Shown here: positions 16,829 through 26,470 of the stretch, in pieces
Layout of the letters: every line of letters starts with the position of its first letter
Position numbering within the stretch: the stretch's first letter is position 1
Source of the DNA: Bacteroidota bacterium
GTDB taxonomy: Bacteria > Bacteroidota > Bacteroidia > JAHEXY01
Length of the DNA stretch: 64,000 nt
Direction of reading: 5' to 3'
Assembly (NCBI GenBank): GCA_023251875.1
Contig: JAHEXY010000007.1
Location: 234,045-298,044, forward strand
Program-made: the position numbers and the translations under genes
The notes under the pieces: generated by a model
Database searches by the model: none
What the model saw: only the letters and a program-made list of their open reading frames with translations
Told to the model about the DNA's origin: nothing

Positions 16829-17986
16829 ATGAAAAGAAACATACCCCAACTAAAGTGTGTTAAAAAAGTCTTGCTAAAAATGTCATTTTTAATTGTTCTT
16901 TTATCCTCTTTCTCTTCAAAAGCCCAAGAAAGAATAGGGATTAATTGCACTAATCCATCTACGGCACTTGAAGTAAGGGGGGCTGAAAACGATCTCCTGC
17001 AAACCATCAATAATACCAATGCTACCAACCGCTCCGGCTTACAATTTCAAAATAATGGAACTGCTAAATTTACCTTGGGTTTAGATAATAACACAAATTA
17101 TTTTCAATTGGGTACTACCGGCATAGGTACAAGCGTAAGATTTTCTATTAATACCAATGGAAACATTGGTATTGGAGGAGTTACTAATGCAGTTCAAAAA
17201 CTTCATGTGCAAGAATCTGGCGCATCAAACGTAATATTAACACTTGATCAAACCAATGCCGGAGATTATGATAATATAGTAAGATTTGAAAACGGAACAA
17301 CTTTTTGGTCGGCAGGTATGCGTGATGCCGATGCCGATCAATTTAGTATTTGTAACAACGCGGATTTAAGTGCTAATCAAAGAATGATAATAAAAACCGG
17401 AGGGAATATTGGTTTTGGAACAACAAATGTGGCCAATACCCTTCTACATCTTGCTTTTAATACAGCCGGAAGTGATGGTATAACCATAAATCAGGGAGAT
17501 GCAACCAATAATAATGCTATTGACTGGCAATTAAATGGTGTTTTAAAATTTGAGATGGGTATTGCAAATGCACAAAATAATGAATTTCAAATAAACAATG
17601 GTGCCATGAATACAACCCCTGGTCTTTGCGTTACAAGTGCGGGTAATGTATATATAGGAAATAATAATTTGTTAGGGGGGTTTTCCGTAAAAGGATCTTG
17701 GGGTTGTAAGTATACATCTCAATCTGCAGATTATACTGCTACTGCTACAGACTTTTTGATTGAAAGTAATTCAGCAGGTGCTGCACGTACTGTTAATTTA
17801 CCCCCCATATCGGGTTGCTTAGGTAGAGTATATATTATAAAAAGAATTGGGGCCAATACTGTTACCGTAGACCCGGATGGTGCTGAAACCATTGATGGTG
17901 CAGCTACTTATACAATTGCTGCCGATGCGGGATGTGTATGGATAATAAATGATGGTGGTGATTGGAAAATCACCGCAGTTAAGTAA
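16829..17986 (+). CDS. Secreted tail-fibre-like repeat protein (paralog 1 of 3)
   Basis: 385 aa. Signal peptide ending SSKAQ (about residue 32), a conserved start R-G-NCTNP, then short repeats of the type NGNIGIG...KLHV that are typical of phage tail fibres and of Bacteroidota surface proteins. A C-terminal beta domain of about 80 aa (YTATATDF...GGDWKI) has a VNLPP...GRVYIIKR core also typical of fibre tips. No T9SS sorting domain, so how it stays at the surface is unclear. It shares a nearly invariant central block (LDQTNAGDYDNIVRFENGTT) with the next two genes. Function unknown; adhesion is a guess. Confidence 0.78.
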   Translation: MKRNIPQLKCVKKVLLKMSFLIVLLSSFSSKAQERIGINCTNPSTALEVRGAENDLLQTINNTNATNRSGLQFQNNGTAKFTLGLDNNTNYFQLGTTGIGTSVRFSINTNGNIGIGGVTNAVQKLHVQESGASNVILTLDQTNAGDYDNIVRFENGTTFWSAGMRDADADQFSICNNADLSANQRMIIKTGGNIGFGTTNVANTLLHLAFNTAGSDGITINQGDATNNNAIDWQLNGVLKFEMGIANAQNNEFQINNGAMNTTPGLCVTSAGNVYIGNNNLLGGFSVKGSWGCKYTSQSADYTATATDFLIESNSAGAARTVNLPPISGCLGRVYIIKRIGANTVTVDPDGAETIDGAATYTIAADAGCVWIINDGGDWKITAVK

Positions 17987-18026
17987 CAATCCGAATTAAA
18001 AAATATAGAATCTAAAATATTTTTTT

Positions 18027-19193
18027 ATGCAAACAACATATACACGGACTAAAAAAAACGAAGGCTTGATGATATTAATATTATCTCTCTCTTCTATTTT
18101 TATATTCACTTTTTCATTACAAGCGCAAACTCCAAGGGTGGGGATGGGTTGTACAAATCCCACTACTACATTAGAGTTGAGAGGAACGGAAGCTGATTTA
18201 TTGGAAACTATGAATAATACAAATGTAGCCAATCGTTCTAGTTTACAATTTCAAAGTAATGGAACTACAAAATTTAGATTAGGTTTAGATAATAACGATA
18301 ATATTTTAAAAATTGGTACTACGGCTCTTGGTACTAATACAAGATTGGGTATTAATACAAATGGTAATTTAGGAATTGGTTTAGCTAACGGTATTCAAAA
18401 AGTACATATTCAAGAAACGGGCGCTTCTAATCTTATTTTAACCCTAGATCAAACGAATGCAGGGGATTACGATAACATAGTGAGATTTGAAAATGGTACC
18501 ACCAATTGGTCTATGGGTATGCGTGATGTGGATGCCGATCAATTTAGTATTTGTGAAAATGCCGATTTAAGTGCCAATGTTAGATTTTTAATTAAAACAA
18601 ATGGGAACGTAGGTATTGGACAAACCAATACTGCCGCAACTCGTTTAGATATTAATTTTACTACCGCAGCTACGGACGGAATACTCTTTAATCAAATACA
18701 TGCAACCGGTAATTCAATAATTGATTGGCAGCTTAATAGTGTTAGTAAATTTAAAATGGGTATAGACAATACGAACAATGATGCCTTTGAAATTACTGCA
18801 GGCAATTTTTCAACAACGCCTGCCTTTGCTATTAAACAAAGTAATGCAACTGTTGGTTTAGGCACCGACTCTCCTAAAAGCGCATTTGATGTAAGAGGCT
18901 CTCAGGCCTTCTCTTGCACTTCGCAAGGAGCAGGCTCTGATTATACTGCAACTACGTCTGATTATTTTATTTTAATGAATACGAGTTCTGCCCGTACGCT
19001 TAATTTACCTGCTGCCGCAAGCAGCAAGGGCATGATTTATATAATTAAACGGAATGGGGGAAATAATTTAACAATAGATCCAAACGCATCTGAAAAAATT
19101 GTAGGAGCAACTACTTTAGTTCTTACATCGGATAAACAAAGCGTAATGGTAATTTGTGATGGAACTGTTTGGCAAGCTATTGGTAAAAAATAA
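18027..19193 (+). CDS. Secreted tail-fibre-like repeat protein (paralog 2 of 3)
   Basis: 388 aa, 40 bp behind paralog 1 and probably read from the same promoter, since no ECF-like site lies in the gap. Signal peptide ending SLQAQ (about residue 33), MGCTNPTTTLELRGTE, then NTNGNLGIGLANGIQKVHI and the block shared with the other two. The C-terminal fibre-tip-like domain ends ICDGTVWQAIGKK. More diverged than paralog 1 is from 3 in the repeat after residue 190. Function unknown. Confidence 0.78.
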   Translation: MQTTYTRTKKNEGLMILILSLSSIFIFTFSLQAQTPRVGMGCTNPTTTLELRGTEADLLETMNNTNVANRSSLQFQSNGTTKFRLGLDNNDNILKIGTTALGTNTRLGINTNGNLGIGLANGIQKVHIQETGASNLILTLDQTNAGDYDNIVRFENGTTNWSMGMRDVDADQFSICENADLSANVRFLIKTNGNVGIGQTNTAATRLDINFTTAATDGILFNQIHATGNSIIDWQLNSVSKFKMGIDNTNNDAFEITAGNFSTTPAFAIKQSNATVGLGTDSPKSAFDVRGSQAFSCTSQGAGSDYTATTSDYFILMNTSSARTLNLPAAASSKGMIYIIKRNGGNNLTIDPNASEKIVGATTLVLTSDKQSVMVICDGTVWQAIGKK

Positions 19194-19242
19194 AATAAAT
19201 AATCTTTGATGGAATATCATTTTTATACTTTATTAAATATAC

Positions 19243-19336
19243 TATGAAATAGCCATGCACGAACAGCGCACAAACATTGACGAATATAACATGGCGCATT
19301 CCATATGACAACTAAAAATCAAATTATACACATATG
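19243..19336 (+). promoter_or_regulatory. Conserved roughly 95-bp leader element, copy A
   Basis: From TATGAAATAGCCATGCAC through to the start codon of paralog 3 (TATACACATATG). The same stretch, about 80-85 percent identical by eye, sits directly upstream of the Kir channel gene at 29587-29682. Shared elements are a TGCAC...GCGCA hairpin and ATGG...CCATATG. Whether it is a regulatory leader, a promoter or a small mobile repeat is not known. Confidence 0.6.
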
Positions 19337-20488
19337 AAAGCAAATATTTACATACAAAAACAAGATAGAGTTGTATTTTCAATACTACTGATTTTGTTAT
19401 TGAGCGCTCTCTTGCCGACTATAGCTCAAACCAGAATGGGAATTGGCTGTACAAATCCAACTTCAATATTTGAAATAAGAGGTAGTGAAGCAGATTTAAT
19501 TCAAACCTTTAATAATACCAATACCTCTAATCGTTCGGGCATTCAGTTTCAAAATAATGGTACAGCTAAATTTACATTAGGGCTTGACAATGCTTCTAAT
19601 AATTTAAAAATTGGTACAACAGGAATTAATACAAGTGTGAGATTAAGTATAAATGCAAGTGGATATGTGGGCATTGGAGTTGCTGATGCCGTACAAAAAT
19701 TGCATATACAGGAAACCGGAACCTCTAATGTTATGTTAACGTTGGATCAAACTAATGCAGGGGATTATGATAATATTCTTCGGTTTGAAAACGGAACTAC
19801 ATTTTGGTCGGCAGGTATGCGTGATGTTGACGCTGATCAATTTAGTCTTTGCAATAATGCTGATTTAGCAGCTAATCAAAGATTTATTATTAAAGCAGGA
19901 GGGAACATAGCCTTAGGAACATTAAATATTGCCAGTAAAAGATTGCATTTATATTTTAATACGGCTGCAGATAATGGTATGACCATTGATCAGCAGCATG
20001 CTACCGGAAATTCAGTTTTTGATTGGAAATTGAGCGGAACAACTTATGCTAAAATGGGCATTGATAATGCCAATAATGATGTATTTGAAATTGATAATTC
20101 TGCATTTAGCACCACTCCTGATTTTGCTATTACATCAGGTAATAATATTGGTATTGGAACCGACCAGCCTACTAGCACTTTTCATGATAAAAGAAGTTTT
20201 GGCCTTGCTACCTCTGTAAAAGCTGCTGCTTATACCGCAGGATTATGGGATTATTTTTTAGGTCTTGGAATTGCCGGAGCTACTACTTTTACCTTGCCCG
20301 CAATTTCAGGTACAGAAGGTAGGATGTATTCTTTTGTAAGATCCGATGCAGCAACAGGAGATCTTACTTTAGATGCAAATGCTTCTGAAAATATTGAGGG
20401 AGCTCTTACATATGTTTTAACAGCCGCTAATCAGGGAGTAGTAATTATGAATGATGGAACAGAGTGGAAAGTTTTAACAACGTATTAA
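19334..20488 (+). CDS. Secreted tail-fibre-like repeat protein (paralog 3 of 3)
   Basis: 384 aa. Signal peptide ending PTIAQ (about residue 32), MGIGCTNPTSIFEIRGSE, a VGIGVADAVQKLHI repeat, the shared LDQTNAGDYDN block and the C-terminal fibre-tip-like domain. Unlike paralogs 1 and 2 it has its own 140-bp upstream region containing the duplicated leader element. Its stop overlaps the convergent lutB-like gene by 4 bp. Function unknown. Confidence 0.78.
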   Translation: MKANIYIQKQDRVVFSILLILLLSALLPTIAQTRMGIGCTNPTSIFEIRGSEADLIQTFNNTNTSNRSGIQFQNNGTAKFTLGLDNASNNLKIGTTGINTSVRLSINASGYVGIGVADAVQKLHIQETGTSNVMLTLDQTNAGDYDNILRFENGTTFWSAGMRDVDADQFSLCNNADLAANQRFIIKAGGNIALGTLNIASKRLHLYFNTAADNGMTIDQQHATGNSVFDWKLSGTTYAKMGIDNANNDVFEIDNSAFSTTPDFAITSGNNIGIGTDQPTSTFHDKRSFGLATSVKAAAYTAGLWDYFLGLGIAGATTFTLPAISGTEGRMYSFVRSDAATGDLTLDANASENIEGALTYVLTAANQGVVIMNDGTEWKVLTTY

Positions 20489-22037: not shown

Positions 22038-24053
22038 TCATAAAATGCTGGGTAACAACACTCCTTCTTGAATACTATACAAAATATTTTGAATAACTGA
22101 ATTCTTGATTTGTTGTTGTATTTCTAAAGATTGATCCTTAAAATCATTTTGAATCTCTTTAATCGCATTTTCTATGGTTTTCTCTTCTATGAAAAAATCC
22201 AGCAAAACAGCTAGTAGATCAGAAATAACTAATTCAATAGTTCCATTAAAAGAAACAAGTAATAAAACATTTTGTTCCTGCTCAAGTGCTTTAGGTATTT
22301 TATCATTCAACTCACTTTCTCTCCAATTATAATGAGTACTAAGCATTTGACTTCCTTCTACTAGCTTTAATTTAACTTTAAGAAAATCATTCTCAGCTAA
22401 AGTTTGAAAATTCTTAAATTTCTCCATTGCATATAAAATCTGGATATAATTTAAAACATTGCTTTGAATAGACTCATTAGCATAATATTTTTTCCATTCC
22501 AACAATAGTATTTCTTGTAAAAAATCATTGTTTTTATACGAATCAGTACCTCGAATAAATTCAAAATAATTCATTTGCAAAGATATTTTATTTACAGTTA
22601 TGTTTGCAAAAAAAGAGTCCAATTCATGAGGGAAATGTCTTTCCAATAATCGAAATGATCGGGAAAAATATTTTCTTAAAATCTTGTTTTTTAGCTCTCT
22701 TAGGCTTAAAGAAAAAGATGTAAAATAACTTATGGCCCCTTGAAAAGTAGCATTTAATTGAGGAGCCAAAATAGAATCCGTTTTAACACTGTCATAACAT
22801 CTCAGCATAAAATAACCTATGCCTGCATTTCCCATAAATAAACTCGTATCATTTTGTTCCTTAATTAAAGAATATCCACTTACAAACCCACCAAACTGTT
22901 TAAATTCCTGAATGGCGGCATCAGCAATTTGCCTGGCATATTGCATTAACCATTCATCCTCGGGCCATACTTTAGTGGCCTCTAAAAAAACTTCAGCATT
23001 TCCACAGGCACCATGACATAAAATAAATGACTGTCGTTTGGGAGCACTCTGTCGGATAGTTGTCTGTATTGTTTTTTCAACCGATTTTTTTAAATCATTA
23101 ATGTATGCTATGTTTCTTAATACTTCATGCGCTTTGATTCTGGCTAAACCAATACCTGCTGCGCCATGGCACCAAGCATTCATATCTGCACTTGATGTAA
23201 AAAAAGCCAGATTATTGTCTTCATATTTTTTTAAAAATTCTTCATAATCCTTTTCTTTAGTTAATGATTTTCTAAAATCTGGCCAATTGCTGTATTCATT
23301 ATCAAAATGAGAATTCTCATAGTTAAAAAGTTGTTCAGCTAACCAATAAAAGTTCTTATTGTTAAAATATTTTCCGAGTTCAAGAAAAATAAAGGCCATA
23401 CCGCTTGCACCATGTGAAAAGCCACACAAGGCCTTTATTTGGTTACGGTTTCTATTCCAATAAATTCCATTTTCGCAAGCACAAAGCTGATCCAAAATAT
23501 TTTCAAGAAATAAATGTGCCACCTGAAGTATTTTTTCTTCTTTAAGCATTTCATATATATGAATCAGTCCTAACAAGGCTCCTGGTGGGCCTAACAATAG
23601 ATCATATTTAAGCTCGTTCAACTTCAAAAATCTAACTGATTCAAGAGCTATAGCAATAGCGTTACTTTTATATTTTTCTTCATTTGTAAGTAAATATACT
23701 TTAGCTAAGCAATAAGCAGTTCCTAGCCTACCAGAAAAAAAGTTATAAAATTTAGTTGGATGATCATTCGCATATTCAATTAACCAAGAAGAAGATTTTA
23801 TTATTATTTCTAAATATTTTTTATCTGGTACATGCTTGTATAATTCGATAAAAAATAAAGTTATTCCCCCAACTCCGTTATATAACCCATCCGTTACATT
23901 CCAAATCGATGCATTCTCCTTATAAGAATCCATACTCATTGTTTTCCAATAAATACCATTTTCTGAGTGTTCTGCTTTACTAATTAAGTCGTCAGCAATT
24001 CGTATTGCTTCAGCTAAGTAAGGAGATGTATTCATTGGGTTAACTATATGCAT
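22038..24053 (-). CDS. LanC-like lanthionine cyclase with roughly 230-aa C-terminal extension
   Basis: Zinc-dependent cyclase that adds Cys thiols to dehydrated Ser/Thr. Residues about 10-435 form the LanC alpha-toroid, with GxxG repeats (TDGLYNGVGG, SGRLGTA, GFSHGASG, GNAGIGY) and the three zinc ligands in NAWCHGAAG (Cys near 297) and LCHGACGN (Cys/His near 348-349). The remaining roughly 230 residues have no counterpart in stand-alone LanC; the last about 70 look like a small winged-helix (LLAVLLDFFIEEKTIENAI), possibly an RRE/PqqD-like peptide-binding domain (inference). A TTG at 24059 lies two codons before the chosen ATG. Last gene of the RiPP locus. Confidence 0.85.
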   Translation of the reverse strand: MHIVNPMNTSPYLAEAIRIADDLISKAEHSENGIYWKTMSMDSYKENASIWNVTDGLYNGVGGITLFFIELYKHVPDKKYLEIIIKSSSWLIEYANDHPTKFYNFFSGRLGTAYCLAKVYLLTNEEKYKSNAIAIALESVRFLKLNELKYDLLLGPPGALLGLIHIYEMLKEEKILQVAHLFLENILDQLCACENGIYWNRNRNQIKALCGFSHGASGMAFIFLELGKYFNNKNFYWLAEQLFNYENSHFDNEYSNWPDFRKSLTKEKDYEEFLKKYEDNNLAFFTSSADMNAWCHGAAGIGLARIKAHEVLRNIAYINDLKKSVEKTIQTTIRQSAPKRQSFILCHGACGNAEVFLEATKVWPEDEWLMQYARQIADAAIQEFKQFGGFVSGYSLIKEQNDTSLFMGNAGIGYFMLRCYDSVKTDSILAPQLNATFQGAISYFTSFSLSLRELKNKILRKYFSRSFRLLERHFPHELDSFFANITVNKISLQMNYFEFIRGTDSYKNNDFLQEILLLEWKKYYANESIQSNVLNYIQILYAMEKFKNFQTLAENDFLKVKLKLVEGSQMLSTHYNWRESELNDKIPKALEQEQNVLLLVSFNGTIELVISDLLAVLLDFFIEEKTIENAIKEIQNDFKDQSLEIQQQIKNSVIQNILYSIQEGVLLPSIL

Positions 24054-24137
24054 TTTCAATATAAAGACTAAACTTTATAAATCTACAACTCCTTAATTTT
24101 TGGAGCATCAATTTAAAACTCCTCGACTTTATAAATT

Positions 24138-25034
24138 TCACGAAGAGCGAATTTTAGAAGTTAAATTGAAAGCGTTGGAAAGTAGTAAATAGGATTGTAA
24201 TTGATCTTTTTTATTCAACGTTATATCCAAAAATATCAACTCATCAAACTTATATTGCTTCTTCAGCTTTATTATTTTTTCTTTACATTCATCAGGACAT
24301 CCAACTACAGTTGGATGAACAATAAAACGACCCTTATTATTAATTGCTTTTTCTATTATTTTTGGATTACCAGAACAAACTCCAGCTACGGCAAGTGAAA
24401 TTTTAGGATATGATTTATGAATTTTATAATAATCTTCTTTAAACCCATCTAACGAATTAATTGTTGCTGTTGGAGCATGAAACAATGAGAGACAATAGTT
24501 GGTTCTATATTTGATTGCTAAATCCAAAGAAACTTGAGTTTGACCTAATAGCCATATGGGAGGATGCGAAATTTTAGCTGGAGAAACAATTATTTCTTTG
24601 TTTGAGTATCTAAGATAACTTACTAATTCATTAATTGTTTCATCATATTTATTTATTGAAAGGTCTTCGGGGCATGGCTCATATCCTTTTAATGCTTTAA
24701 AATAAGCAGGTGTACAAATACCTCGGGCTAAACCCAAATCAATACGATTAGGAAATAATGATTCAAGCAATAAGTAATTTAAAGATACTCGATAGGGACT
24801 ATTCAACAAAAGTAAAATGCCAGCAGGACCAATTTTAATTTTTCGGGTATGCTGACAAAGAATGGAAATTAAAATTTCATTATTTTTTAAATGACTAACC
24901 GAAGAAAAATGCTCTCCCAACCAATACCTTGAAAATCCTAAATCCTCCGCAGTTTTTATTATTGAAATTAAATCTGATATATCCTTTTTACTTCCGTTTA
25001 ATGTAATTCCTATATCTAAAATACCTATTTTCAA
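24138..25034 (-). CDS. Luciferase-like (LLM) flavin-dependent monooxygenase
   Basis: 298 aa TIM-barrel oxidoreductase of the bacterial luciferase-like family, expected to use reduced flavin and O2. Visible: GFSRYWLGEHFSS (conserved EH near residue 41), ILLLLNSPYRVSLNYLLLESLFPNRIDLGLARG, the family core, and PPIWLLGQT. Located between a lanthipeptide precursor and a LanC gene, it is probably a tailoring enzyme on the peptide; LLM enzymes are known in several lanthipeptide clusters. The only in-frame start is TTG at 25034, because a stop lies three codons upstream. Confidence 0.88.
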   Translation of the reverse strand: MKIGILDIGITLNGSKKDISDLISIIKTAEDLGFSRYWLGEHFSSVSHLKNNEILISILCQHTRKIKIGPAGILLLLNSPYRVSLNYLLLESLFPNRIDLGLARGICTPAYFKALKGYEPCPEDLSINKYDETINELVSYLRYSNKEIIVSPAKISHPPIWLLGQTQVSLDLAIKYRTNYCLSLFHAPTATINSLDGFKEDYYKIHKSYPKISLAVAGVCSGNPKIIEKAINNKGRFIVHPTVVGCPDECKEKIIKLKKQYKFDELIFLDITLNKKDQLQSYLLLSNAFNLTSKIRSS

Positions 25035-25077
25035 GTAATTTTATAATGAATGATGATTTTCAAATGTAATAATAAAA

Positions 25078-25111
25078 TTTAAGACATGAATTTTAAAATT
25101 CATGTCTTAAA
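25078..25111. terminator. 34-bp perfect palindrome between RiPP precursor and LLM gene
   Basis: TTTAAGACATGAATTTT is followed directly by its reverse complement, with no spacer. On the minus strand it is about 30 bp past the precursor stop and is followed by T-rich sequence, so it can act as a terminator or attenuator that limits transcription into the LLM and LanC genes. It could also be a dimeric operator, since it is perfectly symmetrical. Confidence 0.6.
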
Positions 25112-25142
25112 AATCCATAATAAATTCTTCTTATAAAATCTA

Positions 25143-25388
25143 TTAACATTGCCATGTATCTCTGCAACATTCTGTCAAATCTTCAACACAGGATCTTGAT
25201 GCCCCTGTTTCCATTTTATTAATAATGGGCCCTATTACAGTACCACCGTTTGGATTAGCAATGGTGTCATCATAGAAACCTCCGCCTCCACCTTTAACTG
25301 TTTCACTAGCATCTTTTGAAACATCCGTAATAAAACTTTTCGCCTTTATATCGTCAAGTTTTAATTTTTTTTTCTTTTTCTTGCTCAT
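25143..25388 (-). CDS. Lanthipeptide precursor peptide (class I, pinensin-like leader)
   Basis: 81 aa. The leader is MSKKKKKKLKLDDIKAKSF..., ending SETVKGG (residues about 1-34), matching Bacteroidota class I lanthipeptide leaders (lysine-rich start, LxLDxIKAKSF, GG end). A run of five Gly (33-37) blurs the exact cleavage site. The core (about 38-81) has four Cys (67, 74, 75, 81) and seven Ser/Thr (42, 50, 61, 64, 66, 72, 78), with the Cys packed in SCVEDLTECCRDTWQC. An ECF-like promoter lies 43 bp upstream. Ring pattern cannot be read from sequence. Confidence 0.85.
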   Translation of the reverse strand: MSKKKKKKLKLDDIKAKSFITDVSKDASETVKGGGGGFYDDTIANPNGGTVIGPIINKMETGASRSCVEDLTECCRDTWQC

Positions 25389-25431
25389 AAATTTATTTTT
25401 TTAAAAGTTATTATTTATTATTTTTAATAAT

Positions 25432-25460
25432 CTATACGAAGGATATACGAATTAGGTTAC
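25432..25460 (-). promoter_or_regulatory. ECF-sigma-like promoter before the RiPP precursor, GTAAC-N17-CGTATA
   Basis: Minus strand reads GTAACCTAAT, 13 bp, GTATAG, one base wider than the sites before the T9SS genes. A second TCGTATA lies inside the spacer. It gives the precursor a promoter separate from the elimination-domain gene upstream. Confidence 0.5.
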
Positions 25461-25492
25461 GTTTTTTGCTAATTAAATTATTTGTTTAGTAA

Positions 25493-26470
25493 TCAGATTA
25501 AATTGTTTATACTTTTTACGATCATAAAACTCAAATAAGCCTCATCCTGCAAAACAATACCTAGCCTATTATTAGTGAGATGAATATAATTATCAAAGAT
25601 GGACCAATATCGTTGTCTCTCTTCCGGAATTAAAATATTTTTCCCTTTCTGAAAATTCAATTGAATTTGATGATTCTGATTCAATTTTATTAACTCCTTT
25701 TGTATAATTTTATTGGATCTTATCCAAGTATTCATCCATTCCTCTTCAAACTCAGCTTTTGCCTTACTAATTTGTTGAAAAGTTTGAAAAATAGAAAGCA
25801 TACCATCTTGTTGCTGCAAAAATAATTCTTCAAATCTCTTTAATAACAAATTTTGTTTTATCTGATTTGCCTCAGTTGTATCCTTTGAGTTAAACCCATA
25901 AGCTTTAGGTAACCAATTGGCAAAAACATAAGAATAAAAATGTTTCATTTCTTCAAATGACATGCCCATTGCATAAGAAAATCCCAAATGCACTTGAATT
26001 GCGGCCCCCAAAGCACGTTGATAGGACCAAATATTAGTTTGAGAAAAAAGCTTAAGCACGACCTGACTAGATGCATGAAATTGTTTTTCAGCAATCTTCA
26101 TTGCAAAAGGGCCACCTAAGAGTATTGTTTCTGGCTTGTACTCAAAATACAGAATAGAATTATTTTCATACCATCGATCCGATTCAGGAAGTTGTTTTAC
26201 CCATTCAGGGTCCTCTCGTTTTGACGGATTTTTTTTAAAATACGCCTTAATACAATGTTCAAGGGCAGGTTTAACTTTTGAATTTAATAATTCTGTATCA
26301 CCTTTTAAACGAAGTCGAACATGGGGGCCATTTTTAACATAACGAATAAAAAAATATTGATCTATCAATTTTTGCTGCATAGCGAAATCAACAAAAGGCT
26401 TGATTGAATCTTTTAGAAACCCCTCCCAATTTCCTGCATAAAACAAATATGCTGAAATCCATGTTTTCAA
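25493..26470 (-). CDS. Stand-alone LanB elimination domain (thiopeptide-type bacteriocin biosynthesis protein)
   Basis: 325 aa. It starts KTWISAYLFYAGNWEGFL and contains FFIRYVKNGPHVRLRLKG, the hallmark of the SpaB C-terminal / thiopep_ocin family. In class I lanthipeptide synthesis this domain removes glutamate from glutamylated Ser/Thr to give dehydroalanine/dehydrobutyrine. Full LanB proteins are about 1000 aa and fuse it to a glutamylation domain; here only the elimination half exists, as in split systems such as pinensin. No glutamylation partner is found in the window. Start codon TTG at 26470 (an in-frame stop lies nine codons upstream). Confidence 0.86.
   Translation of the reverse strand: MKTWISAYLFYAGNWEGFLKDSIKPFVDFAMQQKLIDQYFFIRYVKNGPHVRLRLKGDTELLNSKVKPALEHCIKAYFKKNPSKREDPEWVKQLPESDRWYENNSILYFEYKPETILLGGPFAMKIAEKQFHASSQVVLKLFSQTNIWSYQRALGAAIQVHLGFSYAMGMSFEEMKHFYSYVFANWLPKAYGFNSKDTTEANQIKQNLLLKRFEELFLQQQDGMLSIFQTFQQISKAKAEFEEEWMNTWIRSNKIIQKELIKLNQNHQIQLNFQKGKNILIPEERQRYWSIFDNYIHLTNNRLGIVLQDEAYLSFMIVKSINNLI

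Follow-up and report, generated by a model that had tools for sequence, protein, structure and literature searches.

A pinensin-type lanthipeptide locus with an altered elimination-domain protein, proposed as a satellite of a dispersed biosynthetic system in a Bacteroidota genome

Introduction

Pinensin, from Chitinophaga pinensis, is made by a class I machinery in which glutamylation and elimination are carried by separate proteins. Such split LanB enzymes have been described as lying within gene clusters (PMC7268733). In NisB, the substitutions R786A, R826A and H961A yield a peptide to which glutamate is added, but from which it is not eliminated (PMC4979651). The name LanJC has been given to luciferase-like monooxygenases (LLMs) acting as reductases of dehydro residues (PMC7268733).

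Here we analyse a locus in a stretch of 64,000 nucleotides (the window) of a Bacteroidota bacterium (assembly GCA_023251875.1, contig JAHEXY010000007.1, positions 234,045 to 298,044). A first-pass annotation had described a lanthipeptide locus with a lone elimination domain and had pointed to a paradox, since elimination has no substrate unless Ser and Thr have been glutamylated. Our results suggest that the locus is a satellite of a class I lanthipeptide system of the pinensin type, with split LanB and dispersed genes, with a biosynthetic path that we propose below and an altered local elimination-domain protein, a reading to which we give a probability slightly above one half (about 0.55). 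The genome comprises 4.8 Mb in 23 contigs (completeness 100, contamination 0.17), and searches in the same family and order found this genome alone.

Results

Four genes on the minus strand, all lying where the first-pass annotation had placed them and all with strong family matches, are transcribed in the order LanB-C, precursor, LLM and LanC, with intergenic gaps of 104, 108 and 78 bp. LanB-C (25493..26470, 325 aa) is a standalone homologue of the LanB elimination domain (Lant_dehydr_C; PF14028, E 7.6e-34). The precursor (25143..25388, 81 aa) belongs to the pinensin-leader family NF038180 (E 3.7e-11, 42.7 bits for a cut-off of 24). Its leader, residues 1-34 (25287..25388), ends in VKGG (31-34) and would be cleaved after GG, leaving a core of 47 residues (25146..25286) with four Cys, two Ser, five Thr and the C-terminal sequence TECCRDTWQC, as expected from the earlier description of a GG-leader peptide with four Cys and seven Ser/Thr. 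The LLM (24138..25034, 298 aa; PF00296, E 1.7e-17) and the LanC cyclase (22038..24059, 673 aa; PF05147, E 2.2e-62) follow. LanB-C and the LLM start with TTG, the sole plausible start codon at 26470 and at 25034. A hairpin on the same strand in the gap between precursor and LLM (25078..25111; 15-bp stem, T-rich tail; -17.2 kcal/mol, z -5.7) is likely a terminator or attenuator, and its position fits the expectation that a precursor is needed in excess over its enzymes.

The neighbours checked are LutB on one flank and, on the opposite flank, a universal stress protein together with a prolyl oligopeptidase. The first-pass annotation had remarked on the local absence of a glutamylation domain, a transporter and a leader protease, and indeed no LanB-N (the glutamylation protein), pathway transporter or pathway protease is encoded by the flanking ORFs listed between 17 and 34.4 kb. 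Three secreted paralogues in tandem (16829-20488; 385, 388 and 384 aa), sharing a sequence of the type GCTNP...ELRG, adjoin the locus.

The genome as a whole has the gene content of class I synthesis. It encodes exactly one LanB-N, a Lant_dehydr_N protein of 1015 aa without a C-terminal elimination domain, on contig 8 (271962-275009; PF04738 above cut-off), which by its family match is the predicted class I glutamylation domain. Its best PDB match was 6ec7, listed as a lantibiotic dehydratase domain protein and presumably TbtB. The genome has two Lant_dehydr_C proteins and two LanCs, the second copies being on contig 14 (78030-79004) and contig 8 (283214-285202), respectively. The single C39 peptidase is part of an ABC transporter that starts at 84884 on contig 14 and directly precedes an HlyD protein. 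Precursor, dehydratase, cyclase and transporter are therefore not clustered, LanB-N and C39 being on other contigs. With a LanB-N and a C39 exporter present in the genome, neither glutamylation nor export has to be lacking, and the availability of trans-acting partners resolves the paradox. Of the two options raised by the first-pass annotation, the first, a partner elsewhere in the genome, is thus the one that the genome search favours: the glutamylation gene lies on another contig, not just outside the locus in the usual operon order, and the C39-peptidase transporter that it had proposed to look for exists as well. A genome search with DUF4135 for class II (LanM) dehydration was empty, a weak result because the control was also without match.

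Intact precursors with pinensin leaders number six in this genome, the one in the window and five others. Four of them (window, contig 8 and two on contig 22) share the motif [ST]xCC-x(5-7)-C, and the ORFs read around the precursors outside the window include no pathway enzyme close to them. A truncated pinensin-type leader of 32 aa on contig 23 (L022:7050-7150) is probably a precursor remnant.

Relatives usually carry these genes as one cluster, which suggests that the split-LanB system is dispersed here and that the window holds a satellite locus. In genome G354, for example, the orthologues of the C39 protein (64% identity), LanB-N (43%) and LanB-C (50%) are in one cluster, with a further gene between C39 and LanB-N and with several precursors and then a LanC after LanB-C. 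More broadly, a LanB-N directly precedes a LanB-C in 29 of the loci L052-L093 (80 named loci in all); given these adjoining relatives, the contig-8 LanB-N was not classed as a PEARL, an amino acid-tRNA ligase without an elimination partner. Lone LanB-C genes are also seen, as in Saprospiraceae, beside housekeeping genes. Two of these (L070:9980-11020 and L073:2567-3640) have a conserved neighbourhood with, judged by eye, folE-like and fabD-like genes upstream. Eight of the ten searched genomes with a lone LanB-C have a LanB-N, and in six of these eight the fetched LanB-N flanks, some of them short contigs, contain no LanB-C. The occurrence in several genomes of a LanB-N without an adjoining LanB-C makes unlinked halves a recurrent arrangement. 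We found no report of it in the openly accessible papers searched. Two QueG-like genes (by eye) resemble each other, one in the vicinity of C39/HlyD in this genome (L168:3962-4762) and one close to the LanB-C/LanB-N pair in G029 (L048:14734-15522), possibly a trace of an ancestral cluster position.

The window LanB-C departs from its family at a residue that matters in NisB. The positions of NisB R784, R786, R826 and H961 were placed by profile alignment to 4wd9, on which the numbering was also checked. The equivalents of R784, R786 and H961 are retained; that of R826 is Leu117 (codon 26120..26122, minus strand), and Leu118 replaces the next residue, Tyr827, so that Leu-Leu stands where some 90 relatives carry Arg-Tyr. 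The contig-14 copy has all four equivalents. Every relative that was read correctly keeps Arg826, about 65 of them in a first set and about 27 in a second, and this conservation is no artefact of the search, since the Arg-Tyr motif was not part of the patterns that found the first set. Judging by their motifs, the seeming losses in L097, L100, L103, L119, L176 and L194 come from a wrong reading frame or from an unrelated sequence. At the columns conserved in at least 90% of the sequences (n=30, the start-Met column left out), the window protein differs at three, two of them Arg826 and Tyr827, and the contig-14 copy at none. Among 34 close relatives the window LanB-C is the most deviant (7 of 39 columns, one being the start Met). 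The two copies of the genome are sisters in the tree (100/99) and 52% identical, with branches of 0.77 (window) and 0.28 (contig 14); the duplication was thus probably lineage-specific, and the window copy changed faster. The AlphaFold2 model of the latter has a pLDDT of 95, and Foldseek matches it to TbtD/PbtD, MadB, MibB and NisB, with TbtD best. The plain description of the protein as an elimination domain in the first-pass annotation therefore needs qualifying: its equivalent of Arg826 is lost, and it is the contig-14 paralogue that keeps every catalytic residue.

In genome G011, a divergent tandem pair of LanB-C homologues (L049:10173-12174) lacks the RLR, RYG and HxxNNR motifs. It adjoins C39/HlyD genes and an adenylation-domain-like protein, and the 20 kb fetched around it gave no LanB-N match.

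The LLM reaches 139 bits against the NCBIfam model MsnO8, for a cut-off of 167, and matches no NCBIfam family at cut-off; a library of defence systems gave a weak oxidoreductase match only. Across 395 genomes of the class, each of its four nearest full-length relatives (32-37% identity) belongs to a class I cluster, where the neighbours are full-length LanBs with both domains, LanC-like proteins and peptides with GG or AG leaders. These four and the window LLM form one group in the tree (100/100), apart from ten generic LLMs, although the order within the group is unsure because of long-branched rows. Tree and gene neighbourhoods together rule out a generic LLM unconnected to the pathway. None of the 80 named loci has a match to the LLM, and a scan of the named genomes with it gave no confirmed relative. 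As a member of the LLM family encoded with lanthipeptide genes, it is a putative LanJC, an assignment that draws on gene neighbourhood and clade.

Both LanCs of the genome keep the Asp, His, Cys, Cys and His set of zinc ligands, and the active-site residues of the window copy are kept. Some 250 additional residues at the C terminus of the latter (424-673; 22041..22790, minus strand; AlphaFold2 pLDDT 88) form an extension that is common to the LanCs of split-LanB clusters; no Pfam or NCBIfam match covers the window copy of it. The best Foldseek match of the extension was TglI, followed by PqqD and TbiB1, and its C-terminal end is RRE-like. The C-terminal domain of TglI has an RRE fold of three strands and three helices in its AlphaFold model (PMC9016710). 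From the modelled structure, we infer that the window LanC may recognise leaders itself through this RRE-like domain, which would suit enzymes working on scattered precursors.

Discussion

Our results are most likely explained by glutamylation, elimination and export acting in trans on a precursor whose LanC and LLM are local. In the path that we propose, the leader of the precursor would recruit the enzymes, the Ser and Thr of the core would be glutamylated by the single LanB-N of contig 8, and the intact standalone LanB-C of contig 14 would account for most of the glutamate elimination. The local LanC, with its RRE-like domain and its intact zinc site, would add Cys to the dehydro residues, and the LLM may reduce at least one remaining dehydro residue to D-Ala or D-Abu, in a LanJC-type reaction. 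The C39/HlyD exporter of contig 14 would cleave after GG and then export the peptide. What is left as unusual is the dispersal of the genes and the altered LanB-C. As a counterpoint, the enzymes of the other contigs may be inactive on the window precursor.

Since the window LanB-C has lost an Arg that is needed for elimination in NisB, it may have another role, and its residues make it unlikely to be a normal glutamate eliminase; with the local domain failing at a catalytic residue, the label of functional eliminase would be unwarranted without an assay. It keeps its fold and most conserved positions, and a specialised role on the local precursor is thus probable. We tentatively suggest, at rather less than even odds, that it was neofunctionalised: within a scattered and shared pathway it would eliminate glutamate no longer, and would, along with the LLM, perform or guide a different step on a single precursor.

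Alternatively, the window LanB-C could still eliminate glutamate for its own precursor through a rebuilt glutamate pocket, with glutamylation provided in trans from contig 8. It adjoins this precursor, has a confident and intact fold model, and keeps three of the four equivalents discussed above; the Lys gained in place of Glu46, beside the RLR motif, could in principle offset the lost Arg. Yet the invariance of Arg826 in its relatives and the complete loss of elimination in NisB R826A (PMC4979651) make this unlikely. The fast evolution of LanB-C, the loss of its catalytic residue and the TTG-only starts of LanB-C and LLM might also be the marks of a duplicated lanthipeptide locus that is decaying or silent. 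We consider this quite improbable, because all four frames are open, LanC retains all its ligands, precursor, leader and hairpin are intact, and frames free of selection would probably have broken by the time that identity between paralogues had fallen to about 52-54%. Finally, it is very improbable that the paralogue catalyses a different reaction, for instance a [4+2] cyclisation of the thiopeptide kind, or that it leaves glutamyl esters as stable products, in spite of its closest fold matches (TbtD/PbtD) and of the non-elimination roles raised for extra elimination-domain proteins (PMC7268733), because membership of the pyridine synthases (NF045556) is rejected at 53 bits for a cut-off of 325, the intact contig-14 copy scores higher, and leader ejection by pyridine formation is at odds with the pairing of a GG leader and a C39 transporter.

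Should the reading of a dispersed system with a satellite locus hold, class I lanthipeptide synthesis can operate with a toolkit shared across the genome, and genome mining by clusters would miss or misread such systems. There is a parallel in ProcM, whose precursors are located remotely from the enzyme. With a key Arg present in one and absent from the other, the standalone elimination-domain paralogues of this genome are a natural test pair for the idea that domains of this kind have a function different from elimination. The lanthipeptide-linked LLM clade of Bacteroidota would provide new candidate reductases forming D-amino acids.

Among known systems, the window shares with pinensin the leader family, the separation of glutamylation and elimination, and the LanM-like LanC noted for Bacteroidota (PMC7268733). 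It differs from pinensin in genes spread over several contigs, duplicated LanB-C and LanC, the presence of an LLM, and a local LanB-C without Arg826. Compared with the elimination domain of NisB, the window LanB-C has the same fold and the R784, R786 and H961 equivalents, but is standalone and carries Leu-Leu for Arg826 and Tyr827. The similarities with TbtB and TbtD of thiomuracin concern the best structural matches of the contig-8 LanB-N (6ec7) and of LanB-C; unlike in thiomuracin, LanB-C falls far under the pyridine-synthase cut-off, and a Cys-bearing precursor is found with a LanC and a C39 exporter. The LanJC of birimositide (PMC7268733) is likewise an LLM encoded with lanthipeptide genes, whereas the window LLM, whose LanJC activity is putative, is of a Bacteroidota clade beside class I genes. 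The machinery is thus of a known type, the pinensin-type, split-LanB class I, and what is new here is a window LanB-C that duplicates the contig-14 copy, evolves fast and bears Leu-Leu in place of Arg-Tyr.
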